61,367 bases of DNA from Flavobacteriaceae bacterium. Lineage in GTDB: Bacteria; Bacteroidota; Bacteroidia; Flavobacteriales; Flavobacteriaceae. The stretch spans positions 1 through 61,367 of the forward strand of contig JAQXBT010000043.1 of assembly GCA_029252265.1 (NCBI GenBank), read 5' to 3'. Shown piece after piece: positions 2,787 through 37,470 of this stretch (the first letter of the stretch is position 1; each line of letters opens with the position of its first letter). The translations under genes were made by a program, and so were the position numbers. The notes beneath the pieces are model-generated. The model saw only the letters and a program-made list of their open reading frames with translations. It searched no databases and was not told where the DNA came from.

Positions 2787-3320
2787 TTAATTTGTAGTGA
2801 GATTTAGTATTGAGACATCGCAAACTAGTGGGAGATTACTCCCAATTTGATCGTTATCACCATAATAGCCATAGGCTTGTTGAGAGGGGAAGATGAAAGT
2901 AACCGATTCACCTTTTTTCATAAGTTTTAAGCCTTCTCTAAGACCAGTGAATAATTCTTGCTGATCTATATAATAAGTTTGCAATTTTAAATCATCCTCC
3001 GTATAAATAATGCGACCTTCTAAAGTTTGAACGTTGTAAGTATACGTAACCATGTCTCCAAATTTGGGTGTTTGTGCGTCCAGATCAATTTTTGTGTTAT
3101 AACGATACCAGAATCCGTATTCAGAAGGGGTGAAGTCTGTTTTAGAGGTCGTTATATAAGAAGCGATACGAGTATATTCAAATTCGTTTAATTCTTTGTT
3201 ACGTTCAATTGAAGCGTCAATAAATGAGCCTGAATTGCTCGAAACTGGGCGCCTCGCTTCAGAAGGTTTACAGCTGATAAAGGCCAGAAGAGTTAACAAA
3301 AAAAACAGGGGCTGTTTCAT
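2787..3320 (-). CDS. gldI: Gliding motility FKBP-type lipoprotein GldI
   Basis: A 177-aa lipoprotein with a signal ending LAFISC (Cys17). The linker carries the GldI-like stretch SEYGFWYRYN, and the C-terminal FKBP-type fold spans about 80-175 with FTGLREGLKLMKKGE and FPSQQAYGYYG. GldI is required for gliding and type IX secretion in Flavobacterium johnsoniae. The start overlaps the stop of the upstream DHH phosphoesterase gene by 4 bases, so the two are translationally coupled. A longer frame overlapping the 5' end is a shadow. The assignment rests on the overall pattern and on synteny with the other PPIase gene. Confidence 0.8.
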   Translation of the reverse strand: MKQPLFFLLTLLAFISCKPSEARRPVSSNSGSFIDASIERNKELNEFEYTRIASYITTSKTDFTPSEYGFWYRYNTKIDLDAQTPKFGDMVTYTYNVQTLEGRIIYTEDDLKLQTYYIDQQELFTGLREGLKLMKKGESVTFIFPSQQAYGYYGDNDQIGSNLPLVCDVSILNLTTN

Positions 3321-34421: not shown

Positions 34422-35810
34422 GTGCATCAAAACGATACCATTATAGCATTGGCCACACCTTCTGGTGCGGGTGCCATTGCGGTTATACGACTTTCAGGCC
34501 CCGAAGCAATTGTGATGGTTGATGCTTTTTTTAAATCGATACATTCCAAGAAATTAGTATCTCAAAAAACACATACCATCCATTTAGGACATATCATTGA
34601 AGGTTCTATAATTTTGGATGAAGTTTTAGTCTCTGTTTTTAAAAACCCACAGTCGTATACTGGTGAAAATATCGTAGAAATCTCCTGCCATGGGAGTTCA
34701 TATATACAACAGGAAATTATACAGTTATTTGTTCGGAATGGGGCGCGTATTGCCAATCCTGGAGAGTTTACACTCCGCGCATTTTTGAACGCAAAACTCG
34801 ATTTGAGTCAAGCCGAAGCCGTAGCCGATTTGATTGCTAGCGACAATAAAGCATCACACCAAATAGCCATGCAACAAATGCGTGGAGGGTTTAGTAATGA
34901 GATCAAAGCCCTACGAGATGAATTGTTGAATTTTGCGTCACTCATCGAATTAGAACTCGATTTTTCGGAAGAAGATGTAGAGTTTGCCGATCGCAAGCAA
35001 TTTGAAGAATTACTACAACGCATTATTAAAGTTTTAAAACATTTGATTGATTCCTTTTCAACAGGAAATGTGATCAAAAATGGCATTCCAATTTCTATTA
35101 TTGGGGCGCCTAACGTGGGGAAATCCACGCTATTAAATGCGCTTTTGAACGAAGATAAAGCCATTGTGAGTGACATTGCTGGGACGACCAGAGATGCGAT
35201 CGAAGATGAAATCACTATTGATGGAATTAAGTTCCGATTTATAGATACTGCGGGCATTCGAACAACCGATGACACCATTGAAAGTATCGGCATAAAAAAA
35301 ACATTTGAAAAAATCACACAATCACAAGTGGTTTTATATTTGATAGATGCGTCTAAAGTGACGACACAAAACAACCAAGTTTTTAATACAGACATTCGGA
35401 AAATACAAGAACAATATCCTGACAAACAACTTATCGTTGTAGCCAATAAAATGGATCAGGCAGACCAAACGTTTATTGAAACGTCTTTTGTATATCCACA
35501 CACCCTTTTTACGTCGGCAAAAAGCGGATTGGGGATTGAGTCTTTAAAAACAAAATTGTTGGAATTTGTAAATACAGGAGCATTACGCAATAACGATACC
35601 ATCATTACCAACTCCAGACATTACGATTCACTATTAAAAGCGCTCTCAGAGGTACAAAAAGTACAGCAGGGGATGGCCGCCAAACTTTCAGGCGATTTAT
35701 TAGCGATTGACATCCGTCAGGCATTGTATCATTTTGGTGAAATCACCGGTGAAATCACGTCTGATGATTTGTTGGGTAATATCTTTGCTAATTTTTGTAT
35801 CGGGAAGTAG
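34422..35810 (+). CDS. mnmE: tRNA modification GTPase MnmE
   Basis: With MnmG, it makes the 5-carboxymethylaminomethyl modification of wobble uridine. 462 aa from a GTG start. The N-terminal folate-binding domain is followed by the inserted G domain: GAPNVGKS (228-235), GTTRDAIED, DTAGIR (275-280) and NKMD. The C-terminus ends FCIGK with the conserved Cys. It is the last housekeeping gene before the accessory region at 35.8-36.8 kb. Confidence 0.96.
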   Translation: MHQNDTIIALATPSGAGAIAVIRLSGPEAIVMVDAFFKSIHSKKLVSQKTHTIHLGHIIEGSIILDEVLVSVFKNPQSYTGENIVEISCHGSSYIQQEIIQLFVRNGARIANPGEFTLRAFLNAKLDLSQAEAVADLIASDNKASHQIAMQQMRGGFSNEIKALRDELLNFASLIELELDFSEEDVEFADRKQFEELLQRIIKVLKHLIDSFSTGNVIKNGIPISIIGAPNVGKSTLLNALLNEDKAIVSDIAGTTRDAIEDEITIDGIKFRFIDTAGIRTTDDTIESIGIKKTFEKITQSQVVLYLIDASKVTTQNNQVFNTDIRKIQEQYPDKQLIVVANKMDQADQTFIETSFVYPHTLFTSAKSGLGIESLKTKLLEFVNTGALRNNDTIITNSRHYDSLLKALSEVQKVQQGMAAKLSGDLLAIDIRQALYHFGEITGEITSDDLLGNIFANFCIGK

Positions 35811-35838: not shown

Positions 35839-35878
35839 AAACTAAAAATTACCCTTTAGGTTTTGGGATTTTAAACAT
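35839..35878. repeat. Left copy of 40-bp imperfect direct repeat
   Basis: Matches 36828-36867 at 34 of 40 positions. The right copy is the true 3' end of the flavin reductase gene plus its downstream bases. On the minus strand this left copy reads MFKIPKPKG followed by a stop, against MFKLAKPKG followed by a stop in the gene. Homology stops abruptly beyond these codons. It looks like an attachment-site-type duplication or the remnant of a displaced gene end. Confidence 0.7.
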
Positions 35879-36017
35879 CCGCGATGGAGGTTAAGTAAAA
35901 TGTGACCAAAACACAGTAAATGGGTCTAAATAAACACAAGCCTAAGGAGATAAAAAAGGACTAATTGATGATGTGTTAGTTTTTAGAATGTATTAGGGCT
36001 AATTTAAAAATTACTAC

Positions 36018-36039
36018 ACGAAAGATTCGTGCGGCAACG
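36018..36039. repeat. Left arm of perfect 22-bp inverted repeat
   Basis: The 22 bases, starting ACGAAAGATTC and ending GCGGCAACG, are the exact reverse complement of 36734-36755. With the preceding C and within the arm, CACGAA and TTCGTG also form a small hairpin around AGA (36017-36031). The two arms enclose 694 bases containing two genes. Confidence 0.85.
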
Positions 36040-36040
36040 T

Positions 36041-36073
36041 GGTTTTTATTTTTTCCTATGGAAGTAAAAAACC
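36041..36073. repeat. Imperfect hairpin next to the left inverted repeat
   Basis: GGTTTTT at 36041-36047 pairs with AAAAACC at 36067-36073, and inside it TTCC pairs with GGAA around a TAT loop. Its position beside the inverted repeat suggests a structured element end. It could equally act as a weak transcription terminator. Confidence 0.45.
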
Positions 36074-36150
36074 TATTTATGCCTTTGATTGTAGCCGCTT
36101 TGTGTAATTTGATTAAACGTTAAAGTAGATATAAAATTTTTATAACTTAA

Positions 36151-36158
36151 TATTTTTG
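36151..36158 (+). promoter_or_regulatory. Putative -7 element of the cassette genes
   Basis: TATTTTTG, fitting TAnnTTTG, lies 44 bases before the ATG at 36203, inside the inverted repeats. The cassette therefore seems to carry its own promoter rather than relying on mnmE. No clear -33 TTG. Confidence 0.45.
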
Positions 36159-36202
36159 CTTAATATTTAATAACTCTAATCTTAACCCAATAACCCTAAA
36201 AC

Positions 36203-36373
36203 ATGGAACATTTTTTTAATGGATTTTGTTTATTTTTCAACCCTTCTAAGGCTAAAGAACTTTACTTTGAATCTAATGAAGGAGGTATAGGCGAGCATTT
36301 TAATAATGCATTTGGGCACTTAACCAAAGCCTTCAATGTCGAGAAAAAGAAAACAGACGCTGCCAATAAATAA
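36203..36373 (+). CDS. 56-aa hypothetical protein of the cassette
   Basis: An ATG-started frame of 56 codons reading MEHFFNGFCLFFNPSKAKEL and ending FNVEKKKTDAANK. It is amphipathic, without a clear membrane helix. Its 3' end overlaps the start of the next gene by 38 bases in another frame, a sign of translational coupling. A GAAGGAGG sequence inside it at about 36278-36285 is purine-rich like a Shine-Dalgarno, but lies about 50 bases before the second start. No family is recognised. The case for it being real is its position, promoter and overlap, not homology. Confidence 0.55.
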   Translation: MEHFFNGFCLFFNPSKAKELYFESNEGGIGEHFNNAFGHLTKAFNVEKKKTDAANK

Positions 36374-36713
36374 AAATAGCGGAGTTAAAGTAACACAAAC
36401 TAAATTTTTTTCGGGACCAATTCCAACACCAGAAACTCTTAGCGACTACAATCGTATTGACTCTACTTTTGCAGAGCGTATAATGAAAATGGCGGAGATT
36501 GACCAAAAAAGCAAGGTCAGATTAAATAACCGAGCTTCAATATTTGCTTTTTTAATCACCTCTTTTGGGATGATCTTCGCTATAGCCTCTATTGCAGGGC
36601 TTCTTTATGGATTATACTTGGCAATAGATTTAGGGATGGAAAGTACTATCAAGTGGATTGTGGGTTGCATGGCGTCTGTTGGAGGAGTCTTTATATGGCG
36701 CAAGGTTAGGTAG
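36336..36713 (+). CDS. DUF2335-like small membrane protein
   Basis: 125 aa. A basic N-terminus (MSRKRKQTLPINKN) is followed by the DUF2335-like motif FFSGPIPTPETLSDYNRID and then FAERIMKMAEIDQKSK. Two hydrophobic helices end the protein (IFAFLITSFGMIFAIASIAGLL and WIVGCMASVGGVFIW, shown in part). DUF2335 proteins are predicted membrane proteins without assigned function. The gene overlaps the 56-aa gene and lies wholly inside the 22-bp inverted repeats. It is the cargo of what looks like a small mobile cassette. Confidence 0.8.
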   Translation: MSRKRKQTLPINKNSGVKVTQTKFFSGPIPTPETLSDYNRIDSTFAERIMKMAEIDQKSKVRLNNRASIFAFLITSFGMIFAIASIAGLLYGLYLAIDLGMESTIKWIVGCMASVGGVFIWRKVR

Positions 36714-36733
36714 TTTCTTAAAATAATTAACCC

Positions 36734-36755
36734 CGTTGCCGCACGAATCTTTCGT
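36734..36755. repeat. Right arm of perfect 22-bp inverted repeat
   Basis: Exact reverse complement of 36018-36039. It lies 20 bases after the stop codon of the DUF2335-like gene and about 70 bases before the right direct repeat. The internal CACGAA/TTCGT hairpin is kept with one end mismatch. Confidence 0.85.
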
Positions 36756-36827
36756 ATGGTCATAAAAAAAAGTAAATCGCTAGTTTAGGACTTGTAGTCT
36801 GCGTACATCTTAGCTACCGGGCTAACA

Positions 36828-36867
36828 AAACTAAAAATCACCCTTTAGGCTTCGCAAGTTTAAACAT
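36828..36867. repeat. Right copy of 40-bp imperfect direct repeat (flavin reductase 3' end)
   Basis: Covers the last 10 codons including the stop of the flavin reductase gene and the ten bases beyond it. It is the counterpart of 35839-35878, 989 bases away in the same orientation. Both copies contain the run ACCCTTTAGG. Confidence 0.7.
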
Positions 36868-37470
36868 ACTGTCCTTTGTCACTCGTGTATACCAATCGCC
36901 ACCCAAACGTGCAACGAGGTCTAATTTTACAGGATCAATTTGGTCATTAATATCTAACAAGTCCGATTTGACATGAATATGCACCACTTTAGCAATGACT
37001 AATTGCCCAGCACCGCCATGTTCACCGAGTGAAATAATATTGTCCACTACACACTCAAAAGAAACTGGAGATTCCAAAACCCGAGGGGGTTTTACTTTAA
37101 GGGAGGGAACTTCGGTGAGTCCTGTTTCTATAAATTCATTCACCCCTTTGGCATACTCATTACTGGATTGTGACATTTGATCCACCATCAAAAAATCAAC
37201 GATATTGATCACCACTTCTTTTGTTTCTTCTGCGTTTTGAAGGGTATGTTTGGTGGTATTATCACGCACACGTCTGGCGGGTGAAAAAATTAAAATGGGG
37301 GGATTGGTACTAAAGACATTAAAAAAACTAAACGGACTTAGGTTCACATTCCCCTTTGCATCAATTGTACTTGCAAACGCAATTGGTCTGGGGGCAATCG
37401 AGGAGGAGAGTAATTTATGCACGTCTCTTGTCTCTAATAATTCGGGGTCAAATGATTTGATAGTCGACAT
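36838..37470 (-). CDS. Flavin reductase family protein
   Basis: 210 aa, FMN-binding split-barrel fold. Visible: SSIAPRPIAFASTID near the flavin phosphate, NLSPFSFFNVFSTNPPILIFS, TKEVVINIVD, and the SPVSFECVV strand. It belongs to the DIM6/NTAB type that reduces or carries FMN. It is the last gene of the aromatic amino acid operon, five bases after fahA. Its role there is not obvious; it might supply reduced flavin or reduce a pathway intermediate. Its 3' end is duplicated at 35839-35878. Confidence 0.88.
   Translation of the reverse strand: MSTIKSFDPELLETRDVHKLLSSSIAPRPIAFASTIDAKGNVNLSPFSFFNVFSTNPPILIFSPARRVRDNTTKHTLQNAEETKEVVINIVDFLMVDQMSQSSNEYAKGVNEFIETGLTEVPSLKVKPPRVLESPVSFECVVDNIISLGEHGGAGQLVIAKVVHIHVKSDLLDINDQIDPVKLDLVARLGGDWYTRVTKDSMFKLAKPKG

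Follow-up and report, generated by a model that had tools for sequence, protein, structure and literature searches.

The perfect 22-bp inverted repeat at positions 36018-36039 and 36734-36755 of the window (the whole 61,367-nucleotide stretch of Flavobacteriaceae DNA analysed here, contig JAQXBT010000043.1) very probably belongs to two REP-like hairpins of two separate, decayed RAYT elements, with a DUF2335 gene pair caught between them in a variable slot. RAYT (REP-associated tyrosine transposase, where REP stands for repetitive extragenic palindrome) here is TnpA_REP, a HUH/Y1 element family of the genus, and the arms are its ends. The arms are largely of a known kind; that they mark gene turnover holds more widely than the window alone could show. 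The features of the region are as follows.

34422..35810, plus strand: left border of the slot, a gene that we take to be mnmE
35839..35878, minus strand: second copy of the flavin reductase 3′ end (MFKIPKPKG-stop), 85% to 36828-36867
35953..36014, plus strand: 3′-end remnant of a RAYT gene (KKGLIDDVLVFRMY-stop), joined to the left REP (blastn, tblastn)
36014..36042, plus strand: left REP-like hairpin, stem CACGAA/TTCGTG (36017-36022/36026-36031), loop AGA, A.C mismatch and foot
36203..36373, plus strand: 56-aa ORF, overlapping the DUF2335 ORF by 38 nt
36336..36713, plus strand: 125-aa DUF2335 / phrog_3996 ORF (Pfam, PHROGs)
36727..36775, plus strand: 5′-end remnant of a RAYT element or its MITE, right REP included (blastn)
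36731..36759, minus strand: right REP-like hairpin, inverted, containing the 36734-36755 arm
36828..36867, minus strand: native flavin reductase 3′ end (MFKLAKPKG-stop)
36838..37470, minus strand: right border of the slot, a flavin-reductase-like gene

The earlier note on this DNA had reported the exact inverted repeat, and this was confirmed. The two arms are perfect reverse complements over 22 bp, their ungapped match reaches 44 nt at 82% (36010-36053 / 36720-36763), and they form the sole inverted repeat of at least 20 bp with arms at most 2 kb apart in the window, against a mean of 0.0 inverted repeats of at least 20 bp in 200 first-order Markov sequences. That each arm folds on itself, also claimed, held for the left arm, whose fold beats 195 of 200 shuffles (z −2.5). 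The right arm folds weakly when taken alone (z −0.9, with 36 of 200 shuffles equally good), despite which the arm stem is conserved across a set of 36 hairpin copies. The outer ends of both hairpins, CAACGTGG for the left one, which contains the 36018-36039 arm, and CAACGGGG for the right one, point toward the cargo. Among 74 hairpin matches in the genus, only the two window arms have the CAACG state, so that both window elements probably had a single recent parent or were homogenised.

Searches with the arm itself found no copy of a 21-base stretch in the own genome beyond these two places (up to 3 mismatches allowed), no exact 20-mer in 100 relatives besides the window, and 0 matches for the exact 22-mer in genome_contigs and for a 21-mer in viral_contigs, two collections from which records near the own genome are perhaps excluded. 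Taken literally, the 22-mer therefore occurs only here, an outcome that the earlier note had set against its own proposal of a mobile cassette; the hairpin family is on the contrary widespread. A looser hairpin pattern gave the 74 matches, which fall in 12 of the 18 genomes of the genus, own genome included, at 0 to 26 per genome, and the reversed pattern, used as control, gave 5. The family is characterised by a 6-bp stem, a conserved A.C mismatch and a one-sided GGYAGCGRGG end, with the consensus CC-A-CACGAA-AGA/AGGA-TTCGTG-C-GG-YAGCGRGG. Stem pairs of the 36 copies, which were chosen, were counted by script and not with a covariance model, because the MAFFT alignment (A1) misplaces the loop gap. 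The mismatch, at pair 7, was found in 34 of the 36, and compensatory changes were seen at pair 1 (A-T/T-A), pair 5 (A-T/G-C) and pair 9 (C-G/G-C/A-T), altered on both sides yet paired in 4, 3 and 4 copies respectively; these counts are of copies, not of events. According to the accessible part of PMC8266576, conserved stem mismatches are required for activity in E. coli REPs. No GTAG or CGTC tag was found 5′ of the palindrome; CCCCGCTRCC is found instead, 5′ of the hairpin on the other strand, and we therefore speak of a REP-like repeat of a RAYT element and not of a GTAG/CGTC REP. Several hairpin copies share sequence with short ORFs or are taken up in the reading of ORFs. A script that searched for the hairpin plus tail, with 11 cases at its threshold, was abandoned.

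Intact elements were found in two congeners, G003 and G009, where inverted hairpin pairs about 690 bp apart enclose a RAYT gene coding for a 188-aa protein, in three copies each; at loci L023 and L024 the RAYT gene, three copies each, is flanked by hairpins of the family. In intact elements the GGYAGCGRGG ends face outward. Derivatives of 200-240 bp retain both ends, and two derivatives in G009 have an in-frame internal deletion of the RAYT gene. The RAYT proteins of G009 and G008, the two on which the NCBIfam model NF047646 was tested, exceed its cut-off of 80 with 87.8 and 92.7 bits, and the 188-aa protein also matches Pfam Y1_Tnp; a PDB search with RAYT gave no match at 0.001. Y1_Tnp (PF01797) is over cut-off in 6 of the 18 genomes of the genus. 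Across these 18 genomes, the number of hairpins correlates with that of Y1_Tnp matches (Spearman 0.77, p 2e-4), with hairpins present in 6/6 genomes that have Y1_Tnp and in 6/12 others (Fisher 0.054), a correlation that is supportive only, as genome completeness varies among the 18. The matching IS-like enzyme that had been predicted earlier thus exists in the genus, in a family of which two proteins pass the RAYT model, but no Y1_Tnp gene was found in the own genome, which is 89% complete.

The RAYT elements at L023:4150-8610 and L024:3970-8560 come as three nearly identical copies that all face the same way, and between them lie ORFs resembling orphan tips of DUF6443 proteins, which we take to be RHS-like. 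ORFs here begin inside the element and cross the hairpin in frame into the tip (TRKDSCGSEG...).

What is left of the RAYT elements in the window lies outside the arms. When compared with six elements only, positions 35953-36014 matched the G003 element by blastn at 83.9% over 62 bp (E 1.2e-13), and 36727-36775 matched a G009 MITE at 88.2% over 51 bp (E 5e-12); for the first remnant, tblastn gave 11 of 14 residues (E 0.006). The left arm closes an element of which the RAYT 3′ end survives, and the right arm opens an element of which the 5′ end survives. The window hairpin ends point inward, opposite to those of intact elements. Two decayed elements in the same orientation thus flank the DUF2335 pair, which sits between their facing outer ends. 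From the remnants outside both arms and the inward ends we concluded that no 694-bp cassette is terminated by these arms.

The two genes that border the slot are convergent. In four genomes (G004, G009, G011 and G012) about 5-21 bp separate the two stop codons. In G010 both genes abut on contig C44, but contig C6 carries another mnmE that is followed by different DNA; the state of the slot in this genome is ambiguous. Elsewhere the slot holds a small lipoprotein-like gene (G006, with similar sequence in G002), a ParE-type toxin gene (G003), a 472-aa ORF (G017), a gene for a 205-aa protein with a weak membrane-domain match below cut-off (G013), or an 8.66-kb island (G008:C19:219009-227673; loci L033 and L099) with a tyrosine integrase, an HTH_17 protein, a Phage_CRI replication protein and a RAYT. 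On the mnmE side, homology between the own genome and G013 runs to window position 36008, before the hairpin, after which each has its own hairpin and cargo. The match between G013 and G008 extends through another hairpin, of which AGAGCGGGG is the end, and is lost from the following base on (177/777). In G005, locus L107, adjoining mnmE, has a fragment that is fused to the flavin reductase 3′ end and resembles a fumarylacetoacetase C-terminus; the gene labels at L107 are our assumption.

The cargo may instead have come with an integrative element whose attachment site was the flavin reductase 3′ end, the hairpins being later or coincidental. This alternative is compatible with our reading of the arms, and we consider it possible, though less likely than not. 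A 40-45-bp copy of the flavin reductase 3′ end is present on the mnmE side in the own genome and in G013, so that direct repeats of a gene 3′ end flank the slot (35839-35878 and 36828-36867 in the window; 83-127 and 1263-1307 in locus L081), although their copies have diverged. The G008 island brings a tyrosine integrase into the same slot, together with the Phage_CRI replication protein and the HTH_17 protein, whose AlpA match is below cut-off, but no second repeat was found at the mnmE end of this island, and no integrase is present among the ORFs of the window's own slot. Against it, other hairpin loci have duplicated gene ends as well (231 bp at L122/L123 and 195 bp at L032). The alternative is further favoured by DUF2335 being a phage-moron family.

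The cargo was as described earlier: a 694-bp interval between the arms with a 56-aa ORF and a DUF2335 ORF (33.6 bits in Pfam, cut-off 25), and no transposase among its ORFs. A promoter motif of its own, which had also been claimed, did not rise above chance (4 sigma-70-like sites between 35700 and 37000, 4.3 expected). The 56-aa ORF gave no family match in the four libraries searched. The DUF2335 ORF matches phrog_3996, a phage 'moron' membrane protein, at 2e-14, and its product is probably a small membrane protein of the phage-moron type. The DUF2335 labels are in conflict, the PHROGs one being a phage-moron membrane protein, while DUF2335 is listed as a predicted phospholipase toxin domain of Vibrionaceae effectors in the available part of PMC6267618. 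DUF2335 was found in 1 of the 18 genomes of the genus, as a single copy in the own genome, and in 2 of 299 family genomes sampled, the own genome counted; in the second of these, G207, the gene lies among what, judged by eye, look like ordinary chromosomal genes. Relatives were detected neither by tblastn in plasmids and phages at 1e-5 nor by a back-translated scan of genome_contigs and viral_contigs. The gene pair seems to have arrived as foreign DNA, and is probably immobile today. PADLOC and NCBIfam gave no meaningful match for the cargo genes. The suspicion that such cassettes can carry defence genes fits some hairpin neighbours in congeners (a TIR-domain gene, an AbiEii gene, and an antitoxin with a ParE-like gene below cut-off).

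We infer that, in this genus, hairpin outer ends act as joints for neighbouring DNA. As had been anticipated, arm-like hairpins stand beside different small genes in congeners, and the homology between related loci was followed across them. It crosses the hairpin and stops at most 4 bp from its outer end in seven comparisons at 6 loci, all of them sharing 1,300 bp or more on the side of the hairpin: L032/L129 (0) and L030/L034 (−4), both at one locus, L122/L123 at the first REP (0), L037/L041 at the right REP (0), L124/L132 (0), L029/L127 (+1) and L031/L040 at the left REP (+1). In four comparisons homology runs past the outer end, with hairpin-side homology of about 550 bp (L122/L123, second REP), about 200 bp (L031/L040, right REP), about 200 bp (L037/L041, left REP) and at least 1,490 bp (L135/L136, ending at +55). 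Three loci yield both a stop and a run-through. Seven further comparisons, not counted among these 11, stop before or inside the hairpin (−15, −24, −29, −34, −46, −46 and −47), the partner having a different hairpin or none there; the window compared with G013 is the −34 case. These earlier stops and the run-throughs weigh against our reading, as do the missing Y1_Tnp gene of the own genome, an incomplete one, and the missing GTAG tag, which REPs typically have. Matches involving L023/L024 and L140 and MITE-to-MITE matches were left out as within-element homology. The comparisons covered named loci only, with 70 hairpins in one and 71 in the other, and as the loci were picked for holding a hairpin, the junction counts are not a genome-wide rate. 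Breaks at repeats can be assembly artefacts. This is less likely for the 4 of the 7 stops that come from G003 versus G009, because G009 is assembled in one contig and G003 in eight.

Among the genes adjoining the junctions were those for a DUF1648 protein (L124), a DUF6443 protein (L024), an antitoxin, with a ParE-like gene below cut-off (L027), and a MORN-repeat protein, and also a weak leucine-rich match below cut-off (both L123); several had no Pfam match. L122:3169-5465 (G009) and L123:2709-5836 (G003) represent the same locus, with the same two hairpins, in the same orientation, within 231-bp direct repeats that end at the REP; the genes between the hairpins differ, a TIR-domain gene in one and MORN plus others in the other, and an AbiEii gene adjoins. 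At L032 (4664-4859 and 4960-5154), a copy of about 195 bp of the 5′ region of a gene, presumably patatin-like, starts exactly after the hairpin end. On the reverse strand of L132, at about 3150-3230, the DNA directly after the hairpin end reads MKKILGLDLGTNSIG, which to our eye looks like a Cas9 N-terminus.

The hairpin outer ends would serve as joints most simply because RAYT nicks and re-ligates there, and we infer that RAYT makes the gene-content junctions. It would nick single-stranded REP at the outer edge of the hairpin and re-ligate the nicked end elsewhere, by which neighbouring DNA would be joined or lost at the outer end; recombination between dispersed REPs would be an alternative route. 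The outer end is 5′ of the hairpin on one strand, and by analogy a RAYT-type cut could fall there. The E. coli TnpA_REP, in the accessible text of PMC8266576, cleaves single-stranded REP on the 5′ or the 3′ side of its structure and ligates strands in vitro, and a 2010 proposal, as given in part of PMC2817692, holds that REP-directed cleavage and in-trans ligation between REPs by RAYTs could rearrange DNA. The junctions may also stem from recombination among dispersed REPs, from adjacent deletion or from misassembly at repeats.

Homologous recombination between dispersed hairpins may indeed have swapped the flanks without RAYT, in which case breaks at repeat edges would be trivial. We find this possible but somewhat unlikely; it, too, is compatible with our reading of the arms. 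Ectopic recombination leaves breaks at repeat boundaries, and at L122/L123 the repeats that flank the cargo, hairpin included, measure 231 bp, but the common sequence of single hairpins is only about 30 bp. Moreover, recombination predicts outer-side homology covering the hairpin and ending at its base equally often, and 0 such cases were seen in the 70-hairpin comparison, where n is small. Outer-side homology started at −2, −2, +3, +12 and +14 in the 71-hairpin comparison, and short stretches of it at 0, −5 and +3 in the 70-hairpin one; the G002 DNA common to G003 and G009 on the outer side begins at −2.

Returning to joints made by RAYT, a broader proposal is tentative and, in our judgement, unlikely: RAYT and REP would form a gene-turnover machine, the hairpin's outer edge being a site where a single strand can be nicked and joined repeatedly. 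At fixed slots, small genes for defence, toxin immunity or membrane proteins would come in, disappear or be exchanged, and REP-bounded segments, the DUF2335 pair among them, would behave like integron cassettes without an integron integrase. In integrons, gene cassettes have attC hairpin sites beside small turnover genes, and neighbouring sites are often in the same orientation. The hairpins described here likewise stand beside small turnover genes, neighbouring ones often in one orientation, but their end sequence does not fit attC boxes as we know them. An integron proper was rejected, as no integron integrase (TIGR02249, cut-off 265 bits) was over cut-off in any of the 18 genomes of the genus. 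Matches below this cut-off were found in 18/18 genomes (best 136 bits, in G012) and in 14/14 control genomes, as other tyrosine recombinases give.

That the arms are terminal inverted repeats of one non-autonomous 694-bp element, moved in trans by RAYT or another enzyme, as the earlier note had it, is very unlikely. Perfect arms with a CAACG state unique to the pair may be a matched pair, no transposase lies inside, and different small genes are found between hairpins elsewhere. The orientation of the ends and the RAYT fragments outside both arms nevertheless speak against it, no further copy of the arms or of DUF2335 was found in the own genome, and the exact 22-mer is absent from genome_contigs, as are 21 of its bases from viral_contigs. 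That the arms are ordinary intrinsic terminators of neighbouring genes is hardly credible: two terminator-like sites were found against 0.6 expected, and the left arm coincides in part with one of them on the minus strand, but no gene of the unit reads in that direction, the conserved GGYAGCGRGG end is not a T-run, and copies of the hairpin bound RAYT genes.

Among the closest described systems is RAYT/TnpA_REP subclass 2.6 (Bertels group 5), which the available part of PMC6006769 describes as mostly from Bacteroidetes and flanked by 'atypical secondary structures' copied elsewhere in the genome. Our Y1 proteins measure 188 aa and 185 aa against a median of 179 in the same portion of that source, with the motifs NHVH, WR and YVHNNP in G009 and SHIH, WQ and YIHNNP in G008, and the 188-aa gene, the one for which this was observed, has non-GTAG hairpins on its flanks that recur in scattered copies. 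Motif and length tentatively suggest that the RAYT is of subclass 2.6, although the motifs agree only partially. Our system differs from that description in the three near-identical elements that G003 and G009 each carry, in its MITE-like derivatives and in the exact junctions that it forms with variable genes. TIRYT/MITE-type elements, as presented in part of PMC3733652, similarly have a Y1 transposase gene between inverted repeats, and deletion derivatives, but the repeats of the window come from two elements and face the cargo. Whereas our hairpins adjoin variable genes, many strain-specific genes of Pseudomonas lie in REP deserts, according to the accessible text of PMC3390384.

The REP/RAYT literature searched, in the portions available, contains no description of exact gene-content junctions at REP ends, and a search for Flavobacteriaceae, REP and transposase together returned no publication. 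The role of RAYTs is unsettled, and where REP-like ends and the gene-content breaks of close relatives coincide to the base, natural junctions are available for testing the rearrangement idea, in a RAYT group with atypical hairpins. If REPs are exact joints of gene turnover, this would account for small genes of defence and immunity turning over at fixed sites within the lineage.

With REP, REPIN and BIME sequences, as far as the accessible parts of PMC3116915, PMC2817692 and PMC3733652 describe them, the hairpins have in common a palindrome with a one-sided conserved sequence, some inverted doublets and the association with RAYT. They differ in what is conserved at the end, where CCCCGCTRCC, on the other strand and 5′ of the hairpin, takes the place of GTAG or CGTC, and in numbering 0-26 matches per genome. 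REPIN-like doublets were seen near 5080-5171 of L035 and at the equivalent places of L124 and L132, where stems of the CGCGAA and CACGAA types stand about 15 bp apart.
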